64,000 nt of DNA from Phytohabitans maris (GTDB lineage: Bacteria > Actinomycetota > Actinomycetes > Mycobacteriales > Micromonosporaceae): positions 62,001 to 126,000 of the forward strand of contig NZ_JAVHUY010000002.1 in NCBI RefSeq assembly GCF_031085175.1, read 5' to 3'. Below, piece after piece: positions 44,522-59,803 of the stretch (the stretch's first letter is position 1; the number at the start of each line of letters is the position of its first letter). The notes under the pieces were generated by a model that saw only the letters and a program-made list of their open reading frames with translations, had not been told where the DNA came from and did no database searches. Made by a program: the position numbers and the translations under genes.

Positions 44522-44815
44522 TCAGAGGTCCTGGATGATGCGGAGCGCGCGGGAGACGCGCTGCATGGTGTCGGTGTCGGCGTAGTCGACGCACTCGGTG
44601 AACCACTTCTTCATCGGCGACGAGAGGCGGTCGGGCATCACCACGTACTGGCCCATCGAGACGGCGAGCGGGGAGTCACGCAGCAGCTCCTCTTCCACCA
44701 CCTCGGCGACGAGGACGATGGGCACGTCGGTGCTGTTGTAGACGTCTGAGCTGATCACCAGGCCCAGCCGCTCGCGGGCACCCTCGACGCGCCAGATCTC
44801 GCCCCTACGCAGCAC
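44522..44815 (-). CDS. PemK/MazF-like endoribonuclease toxin
   Basis: The 97-residue protein reads LRRGEIWRVEGARERLGLVI, then SSDVYNSTDVPIVLVAEVVE, and later LSSPMKKWFTECVDYADTDT. The opening RRGEIW strand and the later strand order match the MazF/PemK fold, whose members cut mRNA at short sequences. GTG start. It overlaps the upstream ribbon-helix-helix gene by 11 bp, the antitoxin-first order. The usual RPVLV motif is replaced by RLGLVIS, so activity is likely but not certain. Confidence 0.75.
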   Translation of the reverse strand: MLRRGEIWRVEGARERLGLVISSDVYNSTDVPIVLVAEVVEEELLRDSPLAVSMGQYVVMPDRLSSPMKKWFTECVDYADTDTMQRVSRALRIIQDL

Positions 44816-45050
44816 GGAAGATCGCTGCGTCCACCATCGCCACCTCGCGCTCGTCGGCCAGCGCCGCGGCCTCCAGGTCGAAGCCGGCGCGCTGCACGGC
44901 GGCGGCGTGCGCGGCGAACACCTCGCGCAGCGCCTTTTCCCGGGCGGCCTGGTCCATCCAGGCGGAGAGCGTCAGGCCGTCGCGCTCGGCGAACCGTCGG
45001 GCCTCCTCGATCGTGTCGTCGGGGAACGACAGGGTCACCTTCTTGGTCAT
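44805..45050 (-). CDS. Ribbon-helix-helix antitoxin
   Basis: The 81-residue protein starts TKKVTLSFPDDTIEEARRFA and continues ERDGLTLSAWMDQAAREKAL, a ribbon-helix-helix DNA-binding pattern. The acidic C-terminal half (FDLEAAALADEREVAMVDAA) would wrap the toxin. It is the expected antitoxin and autorepressor of the MazF-like toxin, whose start it overlaps by 11 bp. The ATG at 45050 was chosen because the fold begins there; the frame is open upstream. Confidence 0.75.
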   Translation of the reverse strand: MTKKVTLSFPDDTIEEARRFAERDGLTLSAWMDQAAREKALREVFAAHAAAVQRAGFDLEAAALADEREVAMVDAAIFRAA

Positions 45051-45416
45051 GCGCAAGAGCATACCCGCGGTATGACCAGCGGACCTCCGCACAGTAGGGC
45101 CTCCCGCACCTATCGCCGATGGGTACGCTCCCATCGATATCGGCCATGCCGGACGTAGCATGACGCGCGTCGCATAGGTCACTACAGCACCTCCAGCCAT
45201 CACACAACCCATCGTGATGGGCAAAATTTCGGTGCTCGGTCAAGCCTTGACTGACTCCTCAGACAGTATTCGGCGCGGCTGGTGCGTGAAGCCGATCACC
45301 GTGCGAGATTTCGGTGGAACCGGCGTCAGGCCGACCGCCGCCCCGGGCACCACTACTACTCGCCGGGGCCGCGGTGACGCTCTCAAACACTTGCGAAGCA
45401 CCGGAGGCAATGACTC
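45051..45416. other. Divergent promoter region, no gene seen
   Basis: This 366-bp region separates the leftward toxin-antitoxin pair from the rightward Roadblock array. It is less GC-rich than the genes. ATTTCGGTG occurs twice, near 45227 and 45308. A GGAGG ribosome site for the first Roadblock gene ends the region. No confident promoter hexamers were identified. Confidence 0.6.
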
Positions 45417-45788
45417 ATGGCTGCACTGGACACCGCCCTGAAAGACGCGATGAGCATCGAGGGCGCGATCGGCGCCGCACTCGTCGACTACTCCAGCGGC
45501 ATGACCCTCGGCATCGCCGGCGGCTCCCCCGAACTGGACCTCGGCATGGCCGCGGCGGGCAACACCGACGTGGTCAGGGCGAAGATGCGCACGCTGGAGA
45601 TGCTCAAGATCGAAGACTCGATCGAGGACGTCCTGATCACGCTGGACACCCAGTACCACCTGATCCGCCCGCTCAGCTCGCGTGCCGGCAAGGGCCTCTT
45701 CCTCTACCTCGCGCTGAACAAGTCGCGGGCCAACCTCGGCCTGGCGCGGCACCAGCTGCGCCTGATCGAGTCCTCGATCGAGATCTGA
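45417..45788 (+). CDS. Roadblock/LC7-like protein, array member 1
   Basis: The 123-residue protein reads LDTALKDAMSIEGAIGAALV, then DYSSGMTLGIAGGSPELD, and ends KSRANLGLARHQLRLIESSI. This is the compact Roadblock/LC7 strand-helix pattern (helix, then a strand with DYSSGM, then a closing helix with an asparagine-leucine motif). Roadblock proteins regulate small GTPases such as MglA or CvnD. ATG start after GGAGG. It is 5 bp ahead of member 2 and starts a four-gene run. Confidence 0.75.
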   Translation: MAALDTALKDAMSIEGAIGAALVDYSSGMTLGIAGGSPELDLGMAAAGNTDVVRAKMRTLEMLKIEDSIEDVLITLDTQYHLIRPLSSRAGKGLFLYLALNKSRANLGLARHQLRLIESSIEI

Positions 45789-45793
45789 CGCCG

Positions 45794-46222
45794 ATGACCG
45801 ACATCAGCATCAGCCAAGCCGTCACCAACGTGGTGAAGGACTTCCGGCAGACCGTGCCCGACTGCGTCGCCGCCGGCATCGTGGACATGTCGACCGGCAT
45901 GCTCCTCGCCGTCGACACCGTCGACTCGCACCCCTCCGAGGTGCTCGACCTGCTCGCCGCCGCGACCTTCGACATGTTCCAGGGGCGCAACGTGGTGATG
46001 ATCGAGGACATCTTCAAGAAGCGGCGCGGGATCGAGCGGTCCGGGCACTACTTCCGGGAGATCCTGGTCAACAGCGAAAACCTGGTGCACCTTTTCATGC
46101 GCAGCGCGGTGACGGAAGACATGGTGGCCGTCGTCGTGTGCCGGCGGACGGTCAACATCGGCATGCTGTTTGCCCAGGCCCGGCTGGTGATGCGGACCCT
46201 GGACACCAGCTTCGGTGGCTGA
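45794..46222 (+). CDS. Roadblock/LC7-like protein, array member 2
   Basis: The 142-residue protein reads DISISQAVTNVVKDFRQTVP, DCVAAGIVDMSTGMLLAVDT and later EILVNSENLVHLFMRSA with MVAVVVCRRTVNIGMLFAQA. The GIVDMSTGMLL strand and closing N-I-G helix align with member 1 (ALVDYSSGMTL; RANLGLARHQL). The family is unassigned beyond a Roadblock-like fold. It follows member 1 by 5 bp and lies 25 bp before member 3. Confidence 0.7.
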   Translation: MTDISISQAVTNVVKDFRQTVPDCVAAGIVDMSTGMLLAVDTVDSHPSEVLDLLAAATFDMFQGRNVVMIEDIFKKRRGIERSGHYFREILVNSENLVHLFMRSAVTEDMVAVVVCRRTVNIGMLFAQARLVMRTLDTSFGG

Positions 46223-46247
46223 TGCCTCGGCGGGGCGGCCGTAGGTC

Positions 46248-46829
46248 ATGTCGATCGAGGACGTCATCTGGGGGGATGCGCTACGGATAACCGGCGCGCG
46301 TGCCGTGATCGTGACCGCCATCGACACCCGCAAGCCGCTGCGGACGGCGACCATCGAGGCGTTCCCCGATGGGGAGAGCATCGCGGAGATGGCCGCCGCC
46401 ATGGCCGAGACGGCGGTGGAGTTGGTGCGGCTGACCGACGCGGACACGGCGATGGACGACCTGCTGGTGACCAGCCACCGCTGGTTTCACGTGCTGCGGA
46501 TCGTCGACGGCGAGGGGCCCGGTGGGTGCGTCGCCCATCTGCTGCTCGACCGGCGGCAGGCCAACCTGGCGATGGCGCGCCGCGAGTTCCGGGAGCTGAC
46601 CGTCGGGGTGGAACCGGCCGGTGGGCCCGTCCCGCAAGCGGCGGCACCGGCGGTGGAGCTGGCCGGCGCGCTGCCCCGGCGGACGCCCTCGGCGACCGGG
46701 CCGTGGGACCGCGGTACCTCGGGGGAGGATCCGGCGGCCGCCTGGTTCGGCGGGTTCGACGGGCACCCGTTCGCGGCGGACGGCCGGACGGTGGAGCGGG
46801 TGCGGGACGGCCTGCACCGGCTGGGCTGA
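46248..46829 (+). CDS. Roadblock-like protein with Pro-rich tail, array member 3
   Basis: The 193-residue protein begins SIEDVIWGDALRITGARAVI. Residues to about 122 follow the same plan as member 1: MDDLLVTSHRWFHVLRIV against IEDVLITLDTQYHLIRPL, and RRQANLAMARREFRELT against KSRANLGLARHQLRLIE. The C-terminal 70 residues are a Pro/Gly/Ala-rich tail unique to this member. The DYSSGM-type strand is replaced (VIVTAIDTRKPLRTATI). Function unknown; it is probably a diverged paralogue. ATG start, 27 bp before member 4. Confidence 0.65.
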   Translation: MSIEDVIWGDALRITGARAVIVTAIDTRKPLRTATIEAFPDGESIAEMAAAMAETAVELVRLTDADTAMDDLLVTSHRWFHVLRIVDGEGPGGCVAHLLLDRRQANLAMARREFRELTVGVEPAGGPVPQAAAPAVELAGALPRRTPSATGPWDRGTSGEDPAAAWFGGFDGHPFAADGRTVERVRDGLHRLG

Positions 46830-46856
46830 CACAGCTATTCACAGAGGGGGACAGGG

Positions 46857-47270
46857 ATGGCGGAGACCTCCGAGGAGGAGGCGTACGGGGCGGCGTACGC
46901 CGAGATGGCGGCGCTGAAGCAGGCGGTCAGCGGCGTCGTCGGCTCGGTCATCGCCGGCGTGGACGGGCTGCTGCTCATCCACGACCTCAACAGCGGGCCG
47001 GAGCCGCACGACATCGCGGCGCTGGCCGCGGCGACGTTCGGCCTGGGCCGGCAGACCGGCTTGGCGCTGCGGCAGGGCCCGTTTCGGGAGTCGACGGTCC
47101 GCAGCCACCGCGGCTACTTCTCGGTGTACGCGGTCGGCGACTCCGCACTTCTCGCCGTGCTCGGCGGTGAGGGGCTCAACATCGCCCGCCTGCACCTGGA
47201 GGCCCGCCAGGTGACGGCGCGACTGATCACAATGCTGGACGTACACGTCGCCGCCCAGGCCCGCCTCTAG
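46857..47270 (+). CDS. Roadblock/LC7-like protein, array member 4
   Basis: The 137-residue protein starts AETSEEEAYGAAYAEMAALK and has VVGSVIAGVDGLLLIHDL (the Roadblock strand with DGLLL), SHRGYFSVYAVGDSALLAVL and GLNIARLHLEARQVTARL. It is closer to classical bacterial Roadblock/LC7 proteins than the other three. ATG start follows a GGGGGACAGGG stretch. It ends 126 bp before the nitrate reductase gene, with the candidate GlnR site between. Confidence 0.75.
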   Translation: MAETSEEEAYGAAYAEMAALKQAVSGVVGSVIAGVDGLLLIHDLNSGPEPHDIAALAAATFGLGRQTGLALRQGPFRESTVRSHRGYFSVYAVGDSALLAVLGGEGLNIARLHLEARQVTARLITMLDVHVAAQARL

Positions 47271-55174: not shown

Positions 55175-55801
55175 TCAGCCGACCGGGGTGGGGCGGCGAC
55201 CGCCGCCACGCTCGGCGCGGAGGGTCATCATCGCGTGTTCAACGACGTTGACCAGCACGTGCTTGACCGAGTCGCGGTGCCGGGCGTCGCACAGCACGAG
55301 CGGCACGTGGGGTGCGATGGCCAGGGCCTCGCGGATCTCCTCCACCTCGTACTGCGGGGAGCCGTCGAAGACGTTCAGCGCCACCACGTACGGCAGGTGC
55401 CGGTTTTCGAAGTAGTCCAGCGGGGCGAAAGCGTCCGCGATACGGCGGGTGTCGACCAGGACGGCCGCGCCCACAGCGCCACGGATGATCTCGTCCCACA
55501 TGAACCAGAAGCGGGTCTGGCCGGGCGTGCCGAAGAGGTACAGGATCAGGTCTTCGGCCATGGTGATACGGCCGAAGTCCATCGCCACCGTGGTGGTCTC
55601 CTTGCCCGGCACCTTCGAGGGATCGTCGATACCCACGCCGGCCGCGGTCATGACCGCTTCGGTGGTCAGCGGGGTGATCTCGGAAACCGCGCCTACGAGC
55701 GTCGTCTTGCCGACGCCGAAGCCTCCCGCGATCACGATCTTGGCAGACGTGATCCCTCGGTTTCGGCGCGCCCCTGCGGCGTTATAGCCTGCGAAGTCCA
55801 C
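55175..55801 (-). CDS. Conservon GTPase (CvnD-type)
   Basis: The 208-residue small GTPase has the P-loop IAGGFGVGKTTLVGAVSE, DFGRITM and FGTPGQTRFWFM (switch II region) and ALNVFDG in place of NKxD. It is the CvnD member of a four-gene conservon: the GTPase, DUF742 protein, Roadblock protein and sensor kinase act as a membrane-associated switch complex. GTG start. The gene overlaps the end of the DUF742 gene by 20 bp. It is the last gene of the leftward operon; the MITE lies just beyond it. Confidence 0.9.
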   Translation of the reverse strand: MDFAGYNAAGARRNRGITSAKIVIAGGFGVGKTTLVGAVSEITPLTTEAVMTAAGVGIDDPSKVPGKETTTVAMDFGRITMAEDLILYLFGTPGQTRFWFMWDEIIRGAVGAAVLVDTRRIADAFAPLDYFENRHLPYVVALNVFDGSPQYEVEEIREALAIAPHVPLVLCDARHRDSVKHVLVNVVEHAMMTLRAERGGGRRPTPVG

Positions 55802-56150
55802 TCAGCACCCTCTCAAGCAGTTCCATCCGCTCCTCATAGGCTTCGACCGGAGCGGCACTGTGCAGCGTCAGCAAGCCCTCCGCCACCATGTCGGCGACGA
55901 GCACCCGGGCAACGCCCAACGGGAGCCGGGTATAGGCCGCTATCTCCGCCAGCGACTGCGCACGGTTTTCGCAGACGGTGGCGATGCGGTGCTTGTCGTG
56001 GCCCGCGAACCGTGACTCCTGCACGGCGGCCGGGTCCGCCACGAGCACCGCCTCCAGGGCGATGTCGCGGCGTGGTTCGGTGCGCCCACGGGTGACCGCG
56101 TACGGCCGGACCAGCGCACCTCTCGGGTCTTCTCGTGGTTGGTCCACCAT
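55782..56150 (-). CDS. DUF742 protein (CvnC-type)
   Basis: The 122-residue protein reads VRPYAVTRGRTEPRRDIALE and has a winged-helix-like second half: SLAEIAAYTRLPLGVARVLV and ADMVAEGLLTLHSA. This is the DUF742 module of conservons (CvnC). Its partners are the GTPase and Roadblock proteins encoded on either side. ATG start; it follows the Roadblock gene by 57 bp and overlaps the GTPase gene by 20 bp. Confidence 0.9.
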   Translation of the reverse strand: MVDQPREDPRGALVRPYAVTRGRTEPRRDIALEAVLVADPAAVQESRFAGHDKHRIATVCENRAQSLAEIAAYTRLPLGVARVLVADMVAEGLLTLHSAAPVEAYEERMELLERVLSGLRRL

Positions 56151-56207
56151 GACGCGGTCACCTCCTTCCGTTGTCGTAGCGGCGGCACTGTCATTATCTA
56201 CTTAGGA

Positions 56208-56615
56208 CTAGCGGGTGACGGCCTCTCGGGTCGCCGGCGACAGGGCCGCACCGACCCGCTCGACGAGCAGCGCCATCTCGTACCCCACCTGACCCACGTC
56301 ACAGCTGCGCGCGGCCAGTACGGCCATCGACGAGCCGTCGCTGATCGACATGAGGAAGAGGTAGCCGCTGTCCATCTCGATGACCGTCTGGAGCACCCCA
56401 CCAGCGCTGAACATCCGCGAGGCGCCGTCGGTGAGGCTGACCACACCCGACGTGATCGCGGCGAGCTGGTCTGCCCGGTCGGCCGGCAGGTCCCGCGACG
56501 ACGCGAGGAGCAGGCCGTCGGCCGACACCGCGACGACGTGGGCGATCCCGGCCACGCTGTCGGCGAAGTTGCTGAGCAGCCAACCCATGTCCTGCATCGC
56601 TGCTGGCCTCGTCAT
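56208..56615 (-). CDS. Roadblock/LC7 protein (CvnB-type)
   Basis: The 135-residue protein reads DMGWLLSNFADSVAGIAHVV, then AVSADGLLLASSRDLPADRA and YLFLMSISDGSSMAVLAARS, a typical Roadblock/LC7 domain. In conservons this protein bridges the sensor kinase and the GTPase. The ATG at 56615 overlaps the kinase stop by one base. It is distinct from the four Roadblock-like proteins at 45-47 kb, being closer to the canonical family. Confidence 0.9.
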   Translation of the reverse strand: MTRPAAMQDMGWLLSNFADSVAGIAHVVAVSADGLLLASSRDLPADRADQLAAITSGVVSLTDGASRMFSAGGVLQTVIEMDSGYLFLMSISDGSSMAVLAARSCDVGQVGYEMALLVERVGAALSPATREAVTR

Positions 56616-59600
56616 CAACTGGTCTCCTTGGTAGAGGTGCTCCCGTTTTCCTGCATGCCGGCCGAGCGGCCCCGCTGCACGCCCCGGTGGTACGCGGAGA
56701 GCAGGCCGCGGACCTCGTCGGGCGTACGGCGGGCGCGCTCGCGGGTGGTCGAGGTGTCGACCCCACCAGGCACGAGCTGAGCCTGCGGAACGCGCTTGGG
56801 CAGGCCGGAACGCGTCTTGCCGCCGTTCACCGGCTCAGCGGCCCGCTCAGCGCGCCGCCAGCCCTCGTCAGCGGCCGTACGCCAGCTGTCTTCGGCGGCG
56901 CTGCGCGGGCGCGGCACGGCACCCGCGCCGGAGTCGCCACCCTGGGTGGCGGCGGGCGGGACCACCGGCGGCGCGTACGCGGCCGGAGGCGGCGCGGCCG
57001 CGGGCGGCGGCGTACGGCTCGGGAGTGAACCACCCCCGCCGAGGCCGGAGCCGCCGCCGAGCCCGCCGTTGCCGAGGCTCGGGCCGGTGGAGAGTCCGGA
57101 GGACCCGCCGGAGAGTCCCGAGGAGCCGCCGGAGAGTCCGGAAGAGCCGCTGGAAAGCCCGGACGACCCGGGGTAGCCCGACGAGCCGCCGGAGAGGCTG
57201 GAGGCGGCCGGTGCGCTGGACGACGTGTAGCTGCCGGTCGAGCTCGCCGCGGCGCTGGGTGCGGCGGCGCTGGGGCTCACCGTGGAGAAGATCTGCGTCG
57301 ACGCCTGGCCGTGCGACCGGAACCAGACCGCCTCCATCTCCCGGTAGATCGGAACCTCGCCGCCGTCGTCGGGGCGCGGCGAGACACCCGGTGAACCGGC
57401 GACCGGCCCGGCCGGCAGGCCGGAGGGGGGCAGCACGGCGGGCGTCATCGGGTGGGCGGTCGCCGGGATCGCGGCGTTCTGGCCGCGCTGCGGCAGCGAC
57501 GCGGGCTGGACGGTCGGGTACGCCACCGTGGGCGAACCCATGCCCTGCGGCTGGCCCAGCGTGCCGCCGGCCGACTGGCCGACCGTCGGGAACGCGCTGG
57601 TCGCGGCCGTCGCGTTGACCGGTACCGCGGACGTGTCCCAGGACGGTGTCTGGCTGCTCGGCCAGGGGTCGGAGAGCGTGGCGGCCGAGGAGCGCGCGGC
57701 CGGCTGCGACGACCACCCGCCGGACACCGGTCCGGCCGCGGCCGGGCTGGTCTCCACCGCGAGCGGCGAGCGCGGGCGGGTGAGCACCTGCTCGCGGGTA
57801 CGCGGCTTGGGCAGCACCACGATGCCGCTCGGCAGCGTCACCTGGGCCACCGTGCCGCCCTCGACGTTGGGGCGCAGCTCGACCCGGATGCCGTACCGGG
57901 AGGCGAGGCGACCGACGACCGCCAGACCCATCAGCCGGAACGCGGCCACGTCGACCGCGGGCGGCTGGCTGAGCCGGTGGTTGAGCGCCTCCAGCTGGTC
58001 TTCGGTGAGGCCCAGACCGCGGTCTTCGATCTGGATCAGCACGTAGTCGCGGATGCGCCGGGCGTCCGCGACGACCACCGTGTTGGGCGGCGAGAACCGG
58101 GTGGCGTTGTCGAGCAGCTCGGCGACGAGCCGGACCACGTCGTTGACCGCGTGCGCCGCGATCGAGATGTCGGTGTCGACGGTGCCGAACTCGATGCGGT
58201 TGTAGAGCTCCACCTCGGACTGGGCCGCGCGGAGCGCGTCGACCAGCAGCGCGTCGTCGCGCCGCGGCGCGGTGGAGTCGGCGCCCGCGAGCACCAGCAG
58301 GTTTTCGTCGTTGCGGCGCATTCGAGTGGCCAGGTGGTCCAGCTGGAAGAGCTGGGCCAGCCGCTTCGGGTCCTCCTCGCCGCGCTCGATCATGTCGAGC
58401 TCGCCGATCATGCGGTCGACCAGCGCCTGGCTTCGGCGGGCCAGGTTGAGGAACATCGCCGAGACGCTCGTCCGCAGCGCGGCCTGCTCGGCCGCGATCC
58501 GGACCGCCTCCCGGTGTACGACGTTGAACGCCTGGGCCACCTGACCGACCTCGTCGCGGTTGGGCAACCGGATCGCGTCGCGCACTTGTCGCACGATCTC
58601 GTCCGGCCCGCCCTCACCGATGCTGCGCACGTCGCGCAGCTGGGCGACGGCGTCGGGCAGGTCGCGGTTGGCCACCGCGAGCGCGCCTTCCCGGAGGCGG
58701 CGCAGCGAGCGGTTGAGCGAGCGGGCCAGGACCACGGCGAGCGCGACGGCGATGAAGAGCGTGATGAGCACGAGGATCGACTCGACGACCGCCTGGCGGA
58801 CCACGGCCGCCCGGACGTCGTCGGCCTCGGTGAGCGCCCGCTCCTCCAGCTTGACCTCGGCGAAGCGCATGAGGTCGACCACCGCGCCGATCGAGCGCTG
58901 AGCGTCGACGGCCTGTGTGGCGCCGGGCCGCTGGCCGACGGTGCGGGTCACCTCCGCCTCGCTGGACTGGGCCAGGTTGACCGCGTCGCCGGTGACCGTG
59001 GCGTCCGCGATGGCCTGCTGCTCACTGCTCGCGACCAGCTCGAACGCCTGCTGCGCGGACTCCTGGCTGGTGAGCGTGCTGAGGAACGAGTTGAGCTGCT
59101 CCTGGCCCAGGGCCTCGCCGCTGATCAGGGCGGCGTAGACGACCGCCTCCTCCTCGGCCTTGGCCGCCTTGGCCTTGGCGAACGCGGCGACCGCGCGCAA
59201 CTCTTCGGCCAGGTCACCCTCGCCGGCGAGCTGGCCGAGCACGTCGCCGTACGCCACGAGGTCGGTGAGGATGTTGCCGTAGCGGAGCACCGACTCGGCG
59301 ACCGAGCGCTGCTGGCGGGCGAGCATGTCCTGGCGGGTGATGTTGAGCGTGGCCAGGTGCTCGTCGATCCGGGCGAGCCGGGCCTCGACCGAGCCGGGCA
59401 CGTCGCCGATCGACTGCCGCTCGGCCGTGTACGCCGCGACCCGCTCGTCGGTGACGTTCACAGCCTGGTTGTAGAGGTCCTTGTAGTCGACCCTCTGCGC
59501 CCCCTGGGGCGGATCGGCCAGGTAGACCGCGGCGGCCATCCGCTCCTTGTGCAGATCCTGCGTCAACGCCGAGACGTTGGCGGACAGAGAGGTCAGATCG

Positions 59601-59803
59601 CGAATCAGGCTCGCGTCGAGGGCGTCGCGACCGACGTCGACCAGCCGGACCGTGGCGAGCGCGAGCACCGCCGCGACCGGCACGACGAGGATGAGCGCCA
59701 GCTTGGACCTGATCCGCGCGTCACGCAGGCGCGGAAACCAACGGCGCGCAGCACGGCGGGCCTGCGCACCTTTTTCGGGCAGGGTCGTAGGTCCCGTGCT
59801 CAC
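56615..59803 (-). CDS. Conservon sensor histidine kinase with nitrate-sensing NIT domain (CvnA-type)
   Basis: The 1062-residue protein has a first membrane segment (about 33-53), a long extracytoplasmic NIT-type sensing domain (about 55-335; LTQDLHKERMAAAVYLADPP), a second membrane segment (about 340-360), a HAMP region, an AAEQAALRTSVSAMF helix and an ATPase domain (VAELLDNATRFSPPNTVVV, EDRGLGLTEDQL). A classical phospho-accepting histidine is not evident, as is common in CvnA. The C-terminal 400 residues are low-complexity Pro/Ser/Gly, including SSGLSGG repeats. It starts the conservon operon. A NIT domain so close to the nitrate genes suggests a nitrogen link. Confidence 0.88.
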   Translation of the reverse strand: MSTGPTTLPEKGAQARRAARRWFPRLRDARIRSKLALILVVPVAAVLALATVRLVDVGRDALDASLIRDLTSLSANVSALTQDLHKERMAAAVYLADPPQGAQRVDYKDLYNQAVNVTDERVAAYTAERQSIGDVPGSVEARLARIDEHLATLNITRQDMLARQQRSVAESVLRYGNILTDLVAYGDVLGQLAGEGDLAEELRAVAAFAKAKAAKAEEEAVVYAALISGEALGQEQLNSFLSTLTSQESAQQAFELVASSEQQAIADATVTGDAVNLAQSSEAEVTRTVGQRPGATQAVDAQRSIGAVVDLMRFAEVKLEERALTEADDVRAAVVRQAVVESILVLITLFIAVALAVVLARSLNRSLRRLREGALAVANRDLPDAVAQLRDVRSIGEGGPDEIVRQVRDAIRLPNRDEVGQVAQAFNVVHREAVRIAAEQAALRTSVSAMFLNLARRSQALVDRMIGELDMIERGEEDPKRLAQLFQLDHLATRMRRNDENLLVLAGADSTAPRRDDALLVDALRAAQSEVELYNRIEFGTVDTDISIAAHAVNDVVRLVAELLDNATRFSPPNTVVVADARRIRDYVLIQIEDRGLGLTEDQLEALNHRLSQPPAVDVAAFRLMGLAVVGRLASRYGIRVELRPNVEGGTVAQVTLPSGIVVLPKPRTREQVLTRPRSPLAVETSPAAAGPVSGGWSSQPAARSSAATLSDPWPSSQTPSWDTSAVPVNATAATSAFPTVGQSAGGTLGQPQGMGSPTVAYPTVQPASLPQRGQNAAIPATAHPMTPAVLPPSGLPAGPVAGSPGVSPRPDDGGEVPIYREMEAVWFRSHGQASTQIFSTVSPSAAAPSAAASSTGSYTSSSAPAASSLSGGSSGYPGSSGLSSGSSGLSGGSSGLSGGSSGLSTGPSLGNGGLGGGSGLGGGGSLPSRTPPPAAAPPPAAYAPPVVPPAATQGGDSGAGAVPRPRSAAEDSWRTAADEGWRRAERAAEPVNGGKTRSGLPKRVPQAQLVPGGVDTSTTRERARRTPDEVRGLLSAYHRGVQRGRSAGMQENGSTSTKETS
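57089..57172. repeat. 21-nt tandem repeat (four units) in the sensor kinase gene
   Basis: Four units of 21 bp, based on GGAGAGTCCGGAGGACCCGC, encode SSGLSGG heptads in the minus-strand frame. The units differ by a few bases. The repeat sits in the disordered C-terminal region. Confidence 0.8.

Follow-up and report, generated by a model that had tools for sequence, protein, structure and literature searches.

A window of 64,000 nucleotides from the soil actinomycete Phytohabitans maris (contig NZ_JAVHUY010000002.1, positions 62,001 to 126,000) contains an array of four consecutive small genes (45417-47270), here called M1 to M4 in their order, whose products seem to be Roadblock-like. Proteins of this kind ordinarily regulate small GTPases that work as switches. 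An earlier note on this DNA had placed four such genes here, and all of them are present on the + strand; it had also seen no GTPase, kinase, or DUF742 gene among them, and by our reading of open reading frames (ORFs) and Pfam domains none of these lies within the array. Judged by its sequence, the array belongs to a known kind of system, the MglA/MglB-type Roadblock modules, and what appears to be new is that it is GTPase-less, contains an additional unnamed family, and carries a tail motif of conservon kinases. Our preferred reading, to which we give a probability of roughly 0.47, is that the array would be a GTPase-less Roadblock module, derived from an MglA/MglB-type module, that is docked by a protein tail and acts in trans, perhaps on a conservon (CvnA-D).

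When each member is checked against Pfam, M4 is a clear Roadblock protein (Robl_LC7, 45.7 bits at a cut-off of 23), but none of M1, M2, and M3 reaches the threshold for this or any other family; M1 shows a sub-threshold match to LAMTOR5 (E 0.042), and M2 and M3 have no Pfam match of any kind. LAMTOR5, a subunit of Ragulator with a Roadblock fold, is the commonest weak Pfam match of single M1 sequences, being found, with matches counted at E values of up to 1, in 29 of 53 members (best E 0.0051) and in 11 of 32 members of a broader M1 set (best E 0.0019), and Robl_LC7 itself is matched by one of the 53 (E 0.025). Profile-profile comparisons connect M3 with M1 (E 8e-16 and 1.7e-13 in two comparisons), M2 with M4 (6e-7 and 1.8e-4, also in two), M1 with M2 (5e-4 and 1.9e-3, or 1.6e-5 across 113 columns if the broad M1 profile is used), and M3 with M4 (0.002 to 0.013). 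Among 100 controls with unrelated local families none fell below 1e-3 and one, over 27 columns, below 1e-2; in 20 further controls with the broad M1 profile the best E value was 0.019. The M4 profile matches CvnB5, MglB, and other Roadblock chains of the PDB, the M2 profile has no match in the PDB, and an NCBIfam search with M1 gave nothing consistent. According to these comparisons M1 and M3 are one family and M2 and M4 an MglB-like pair, and we are quite sure of this identity of the parts; the Roadblock nature of M1 and M3 is only probable, because their link to M4 runs stepwise through M2. The four proteins had been described as Roadblock/LC7-like paralogues with a common strand motif. Roadblock-like they are by Pfam (M4) and by profile comparison, but they are of two kinds (M1/M3 and M2/M4) rather than equals, and the motif is clear in M1 (IEDVLI) and M3 (MDDLLV) but not in M2 and M4. 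No match of M2 or M3 to an unrelated family, which the earlier note had considered, was obtained.

The array is no isolated case. Its four-gene order recurs, and it represents one type within a family of arrays that has no name and is widespread among actinomycetes. For the bacterial family, M1 homologs were found in 65 of 121 genomes, belonging to 22 of 44 genera; across the phylum, the A1 profile detects them in 21 of 396 genomes. Order-level searches around the genomes G350 and G366 revealed no new M1 genomes. As a whole the M1 family is present in Actinomycetota, Pseudomonadota, Deinococcota, and Bacteroidota. Loci were read around the strong matches to M1 among the matches listed; the set of named relatives consists of the best 80 of at least 560 and overlaps with the family set, so some of the 186 units compiled in this way may be near-copies. 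For the tallies of units, motifs, and tails, each set of identical proteins, units, or tails was reduced to a single entry. Genes in the fetched loci were called with a script based on GC content at third codon positions (GC3), which makes their starts approximate, and too short in L075 (GTPase), L274, and L281. An apparent gene of 66 amino acids encoding only a tail in the M3 slot of L098 was a start-codon artefact, and the open frame there holds a full M3.

The 186 units comprise 69 with the order M1p-F20-M4-M1, 36 with M1-M4, 35 in which M1 has no recognized partner in its block (a few with CvnB further on), 18 with the order M1-M2-M3-M4 of the window, 17 preceded by an additional F20, and 11 of other kinds. 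If distinct Roadblock tails are taken as the basis of the count, the arrays bearing M3 number 14. In the loci examined M2 was seen only after the M1 gene of window-type arrays, no search having been aimed at M2 alone outside the genus. F20 is a PATAN protein (29 of 35 members match DUF4388 at E values of up to 1, best E 5.7e-12), and some of its members have weak winged-helix matches as well. A small P-loop GTPase is encoded at most four genes away in 5 of the 186 units, three of them being M1-CvnB-CvnD loci and two having a neighboring conservon; L075 is a fourth M1-CvnB-CvnD locus, which the scan overlooked owing to the short-called start of its GTPase. Absence of a GTPase is the rule beside M1-family units.

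More distant relatives retain a GTPase in part. Another 12 M1 loci of Actinomycetota, from genomes mostly outside the bacterial family, were inspected (the script called no M1 in L277 and L282), and in five of them M1 is accompanied by genes for a GTPase and a Roadblock protein. The order is PATAN, GTPase, one more protein, Roadblock, and M1 in L278 and L280, and M1, GTPase, and Roadblock in L279; in L274 and L281 a GTPase-like frame (P-loop plus TPGQ motif) is followed by Roadblock, with a match below the Pfam cut-off in L274, and M1. A search of 72,556 plasmid records identified M1 relatives in 28, including plasmids of Comamonas, Agarilytica, Acinetobacter, Deinococcus, and Hymenobacter; those from outside the Actinomycetota are 34-54% identical among the matches listed, and wherever the plasmid records listed (25 of the 28) are annotated, the M1 relative is labelled “hypothetical protein.” The Comamonas plasmid (L288, 3226-5360) encodes a winged-helix protein, GTPase, Roadblock, and M1, an order resembling the group 3 MglA systems in the available text of the 2014 survey of prokaryotic Ras-like GTPases by Wuichet and Sogaard-Andersen (PMC4316618). 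The Agarilytica plasmid (L289, 5001-7072) encodes M1, BLUF, GTPase, and Roadblock, possibly a light-input GTPase module. An Acinetobacter plasmid has Roadblock, an uncharacterized gene, and M1 (no publication on Roadblock proteins in Acinetobacter was found in the literature searched), and one Deinococcus plasmid has DUF4388 and M1. By annotation, no partner of GTPase, Roadblock, or PATAN type is encoded in the plasmid regions of Deinococcus gobiensis, Diaphorobacter, Methylomagnum, Hymenobacter, and Tsukamurella; the Nocardia stretch, one of the ten regions, carries no annotation.

In a phylogenetic tree of the M1 family a branch (96/97) sets off all M1 orthologs, the actinomycete M1 proteins (96/94) being nested among them, and M1p and M3 form separate branches. 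In the tree of Roadblock proteins the M4 clade (97/82), which includes one long-branch GTPase-linked row, groups with the GTPase-linked Roadblocks of L278 and L280 (91/72), and M4, these two, and M2 are together split from CvnB (97/91); a long-branch warning applies to rows on the CvnB side. The array as a truncated conservon is ruled out by the position of M4 outside the CvnB clade, and for the same reason it is not an extension of a conservon with its own GTPase, another possibility raised earlier. Loss of the GTPase gene seems to be the simplest reading of trees and gene order, and on balance we favor descent of the array from a module of M1, Roadblock, and MglA-type GTPase of which most actinomycetes would have lost the GTPase gene.

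M3 consists of an M1-like domain, a highly variable linker, an LPxR motif, and a conserved C-terminal segment, and owing to the linker its length ranges from less than 200 to more than 1000 amino acids. LP[RKQ]R occurs within the last 110 residues of all 16 distinct M3 proteins, and the tail is the only part of M3 that aligns with F20 (P 6.4e-4). A 12-position matrix was built from 16 CvnA tails of other genomes, those fitting a loose pattern among CvnA-like frames in 30 loci, with the CvnA of the window held out. Run over the M1 and conservon loci at a threshold of 11.4, which 15 of 1557 other proteins pass, it matches 11 of 16 M3, 48 of 99 F20, 36 of 137 M4, and nine of nine CvnA proteins; shuffles of the same composition yield on average 0.2 (M3), 3.0 (F20), and 1.8 (M4) matches. 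M3 of the window scores 20.3. Matches are absent or nearly so from M1 (0/168), M1p (1/83), M2 (0/18), CvnB (0/13), and CvnD (0/12).

The carrier of the motif varies with the architecture. M3 carries it in each of the 14 window-type arrays; for L038 the loose pattern fell inside the domain of M3, and the tail motif was taken from a separate reading of the tail. In two-gene units it is situated in an N-terminal extension of M4 (24 of 34), and in PATAN units in F20 and often M4, the counts for PATAN units being by the loose pattern. Among other proteins of 100-400 amino acids the loose pattern has a background of 114/1140 and the strict motif one of 21/1140, and the neighbors of 29 M1 genes without Roadblock partner are near this background (strict motif in 4/114). 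These counts suggest that the LPxR motif goes with the MglB-type Roadblock rather than with M1. The helical moment of the C-terminus exceeds the 95th percentile of other genes in 8 of 16 M3 (p 0.003) and 24 of 81 F20 proteins (p 7e-25). In the part of the 2014 survey available, an LPxR motif of unstated function is described from the C-terminal extension of conservon kinases and is not found in proteins tied to MglA groups 3-5 (PMC4316618). Taking tail alignment and motif together, we consider the chances about even that the M3 tail is a Roadblock-docking element. As a separate observation, an ORF of 919 amino acids in L146 (7298-10057, - strand), which has a conservon of its own genome as neighbor, ends in a near-perfect CvnA-type tail motif; it is not a kinase, as Pfam finds no domain in it.

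If the preferred reading holds, two subunits of the M1 family (M1 and M3) and two MglB-like ones (M2 and M4) would, by analogy with the Roadblock proteins of Myxococcus, associate into a hetero-oligomeric platform, and the ancestral module would in some cases also have had a PATAN or winged-helix input protein. The tail of M3 might be the docking strap that attaches to the surface of a Roadblock protein, a role that conservon kinase tails would have as well, and the output would be exerted in trans on the CvnB/CvnD of a conservon, the platform serving as scaffold or competitor rather than as a GTP switch of its own. A canonical conservon had been located 8 kb away by the earlier note, and CvnD, CvnC, CvnB, and CvnA are indeed encoded there, starting about 7.9 kb downstream of the array. 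A search with one query (the GTPase of L278, E up to 0.01) found five MglA-type GTPases in this genome, and all five are at conservon loci; a conservon CvnD is therefore the first candidate if the array acts on a GTPase. The earlier hypothesis of an array working with the conservon gains support from these five GTPases and from the tail motif found in both M3 and conservon kinases, and a conservon as target is a tentative proposal, possible rather than probable. A further-going form, which we think rather unlikely, sees such arrays as GTPase-free, Ragulator-like platforms whose M1/M3 and M2/M4 subunits would be held by a disordered strap (LPxR plus terminal helix), the same strap as in conservon kinases; LPxR would then be a general Roadblock-binding motif and not an arginine finger, and the arrays would plug into conservon signaling in trans.

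Several observations weigh against the preferred reading. A direct profile comparison of M1 with M4 is not significant (E 0.024, 0.33, and 0.022); in the PDB the broad M1 profile matches a Roadblock chain best, with nearly the full length aligned, yet at an E value of 0.17, and the first M1 profile finds only adenosylhomocysteinase in the PDB (E 0.21 or worse). The tallied loci were chosen by their similarity to M1. With regard to the motif, LPxR is absent from the last 70 residues of 12 of 16 PATAN proteins (loci of Streptomyces, Kitasatospora, Actinacidiphila, and Actinomadura), and there is no carrier in 12 of 65 M1p-F20-M4-M1 units, in 10 of the 34 units of type M1-M4, and in any of the five rare ones, so that some units do without it. 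Among the other proteins the one with the highest score, that of L146, bears the motif without a Pfam domain and adjoins a conservon, from which it follows that carriers of the motif are not all kinases or partners of a Roadblock, and the test of helical moments is only moderate for M3 and fails for CvnA (0/9). With regard to descent, no GTPase lies beside M1 in 7 of the 12 further loci and 8 of the 10 plasmid regions, and ancestral linkage to a GTPase is for this reason not obvious. The Roadblocks of L274, L281, the Comamonas and Agarilytica plasmids, and Acinetobacter fall on the CvnB side, both trees being midpoint-rooted and based on few columns, and in at least three Actinoplanes-type loci M1 adjoins CvnB and CvnD, which means that linkage to a GTPase can arise by gain as well. 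Our confidence in GTPase loss has been lowered because four GTPase-linked Roadblocks are on the CvnB side and many M1 relatives have no GTPase nearby.

Features of the array and of the nearby conservon, with positions in the window
Feature	Position	Strand	Remarks
M1	45417-45788	+	123 amino acids; probably Roadblock-like, unnamed family with weak LAMTOR5 similarity; relatives across several phyla
M2	45794-46222	+	142 amino acids; MglB-like by profile comparison, without Pfam match
M3	46248-46829	+	193 amino acids
M3, N-terminal domain	46248-46607	+	M1 family; boundary approximate
M3, tail motif	46671-46688	+	LPRRTP (LPxR type, as in tails of conservon CvnA kinases)
M3, C-terminal conserved segment	46779-46826	+	GRTVERVRDGLHRL; possible amphipathic helix; resembles C-terminus of PATAN protein F20
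M4	46857-47270	+	137 amino acids; Roadblock/LC7 (MglB-like), outside CvnB clade
CvnD	55175-55801	-	GTPase; belongs to the five of MglA type that a search of the genome found
CvnC	55782-56042	-	DUF742 (E 1.5e-18)
CvnB	56208-56597	-	Robl_LC7; clade separate from M4
CvnA	56615-59683	-	Sensor kinase with NIT domain (E 5e-31); tail motif LPKRVPQAQLVP; comparison, possible partner

The genes of the array are separated by 5 (M1-M2), 25 (M2-M3), and 27 (M3-M4) nucleotides, and a scan for promoters and terminators, based on a sigma-70 consensus of doubtful suitability, found none. It is flanked by narK on one side and a gene of the molybdopterin nitrate reductase type on the other, the names narK, nasA, nirB, and nirD being assigned from family and gene order. 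Downstream of M4 follow the molybdopterin oxidoreductase of nitrate reductase type, an FAD reductase, a nirB-type nitrite reductase, a Rieske-type nirD, a HemD-regulator fusion, and the conservon. A location between narK and the nitrate reductase operon, as described earlier, is thus seen here, but a PemK/MazF-like toxin gene with an overlapping DUF6364-like partner (44522-45062, - strand) intervenes between narK and the array, and the setting is confined to the genus. The same toxin-like pair is present in the congener loci L033 and L038. The NIT-CvnA conservon (55175-59683) directly adjoins the nitrate/nitrite cluster, and its CvnD end has the same place in P. suffuscus (L033). Even within Phytohabitans, two of five genomes have a nasA remnant or none beside the array: in P. 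suffuscus (L033, 4806-5048) nasA is reduced to a match of 81 residues, and in P. flavus (L052) it was not found in the stretch examined, nirB and the array being retained in both. Beside window-type arrays in the loci of other genera examined, no nasA was found. Nitrate as the general business of the array is ruled out, since the context was seen in this genus alone, in which the nearness to NIT conservon and nitrate genes is suggestive. Second copies are also encountered: P. suffuscus has one (L034, 5814-6999, also L165) with M2 in two frames and no called M3, and in G031 M2 lies in two overlapping pieces at a second place.

The nitrate setting bears on an explanation by which the array serves the neighboring NIT conservon as decoy or antagonist, and in which M3 would compete with CvnA for CvnB by means of the common tail and so tune nitrate-linked signaling. 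The tail motif is common to M3 and CvnA, CvnA has a NIT domain, and the conservon adjoins the nitrite/nitrate cluster in P. suffuscus as well; however, the lack of nasA by the array in the loci of other genera, the fact that P. suffuscus and P. flavus retain the array with a remnant of nasA, or with none found, next to it, and the statement in the accessible text of PMC13343842 that NIT domains need not bind nitrate make us consider this explanation improbable. The broken second copies of the two congeners might be taken as signs of decay, the array being what remains of a GTPase operon and having little function, but M1 is 61-83% identical to that of the window in 11 sequences from other genomes of the class, the columns of M2 are identical at 77% on average in 14 sequences, and the four-gene order is kept in 14 distinct arrays, so that we give decay hardly any credit.

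A GTPase-independent regulator, which we consider unlikely, though less so than a decoy, would employ the platform, without ever encountering a GTPase, to sense or scaffold a metabolic or transcriptional partner; in sister units the PATAN or winged-helix protein would be this partner. It is consistent with the scarcity of GTPases, none having been found near 181 of the 186 units (with L075 as one further unit that has a GTPase), and with the weak winged-helix matches of some F20 proteins. It is also consistent with genome G125 (L275), which possesses M1, has no strong match to a CvnA-region query, and has no GTPase or Roadblock gene called beside M1. Against it, M1 relatives in several lineages retain the GTPase, and the LPxR tail is otherwise described, in the part of the survey at hand, from a GTPase system (PMC4316618).

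Compared with the conservons of Streptomyces coelicolor, the array has in common a Roadblock protein and the LPxR tail motif, which is there on the CvnA kinase. Unlike them it has no kinase, CvnC, or GTPase, M4 lies outside the CvnB clade, and no counterpart of M1, M2, or M3 was found in conservons. The structure of MglC is in the PDB, and its chain is not among the PDB matches of the M1 profiles. MglC of Myxococcus xanthus is, as far as the available text of PMC10329633 goes, a Roadblock protein without GTPase-activating protein (GAP) activity whose two sides are bound to MglB and to the helical C-terminal portion of RomR, respectively. The likeness lies in a second Roadblock protein and in the C-terminal helical part of an input protein, but the RomR-MglC-MglB system works with MglA, and the C-terminus of RomR is acidic whereas the tails of the array family are basic. 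With the MglA/MglB modules, as described in the accessible portion of the 2014 survey (PMC4316618), the array shares an MglB-type Roadblock, and some of its relatives share the GTPase, Roadblock, and PATAN or winged-helix partner; it differs in lacking the GTPase and in possessing the additional Pfam-less family M1/M3. Two or three mglB genes occur in the mgl operons of Snodgrassella and other group 3 systems, according to the part of PMC11112851 available. Most M4 units are orphans, as is an exclusively orphan clade of actinobacterial MglB in the survey (PMC4316618), and M4 is perhaps this very clade, to judge from the partial description there, the sequences of the survey not having been compared. 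Ragulator (LAMTOR1-5) likewise combines several subunits of Roadblock fold with a strap-like partner, and M1 is weakly LAMTOR5-like, but Ragulator is eukaryotic and serves Rag GTPases, so that the architectural likeness should be taken as an analogy.

The literature searched, which takes in few subscription journals, yielded no description of the M1 family or of GTPase-less arrays, in line with the earlier view that the grouping had not been described as a system. M1 is an unnamed, Pfam-less family that is encoded together with Roadblock and GTPase genes in several lineages. Two loose ends of the 2014 survey, to the extent of its available text (PMC4316618), become testable together, namely the partners of orphan actinobacterial MglB proteins and the role of LPxR in conservon kinases. 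As the arrays retain the motif and the Roadblock without kinase and GTPase, they separate the candidate functions, and the tail motif that M3 has in common with conservon kinases is a tangible clue to the binding partners of these orphan regulators.

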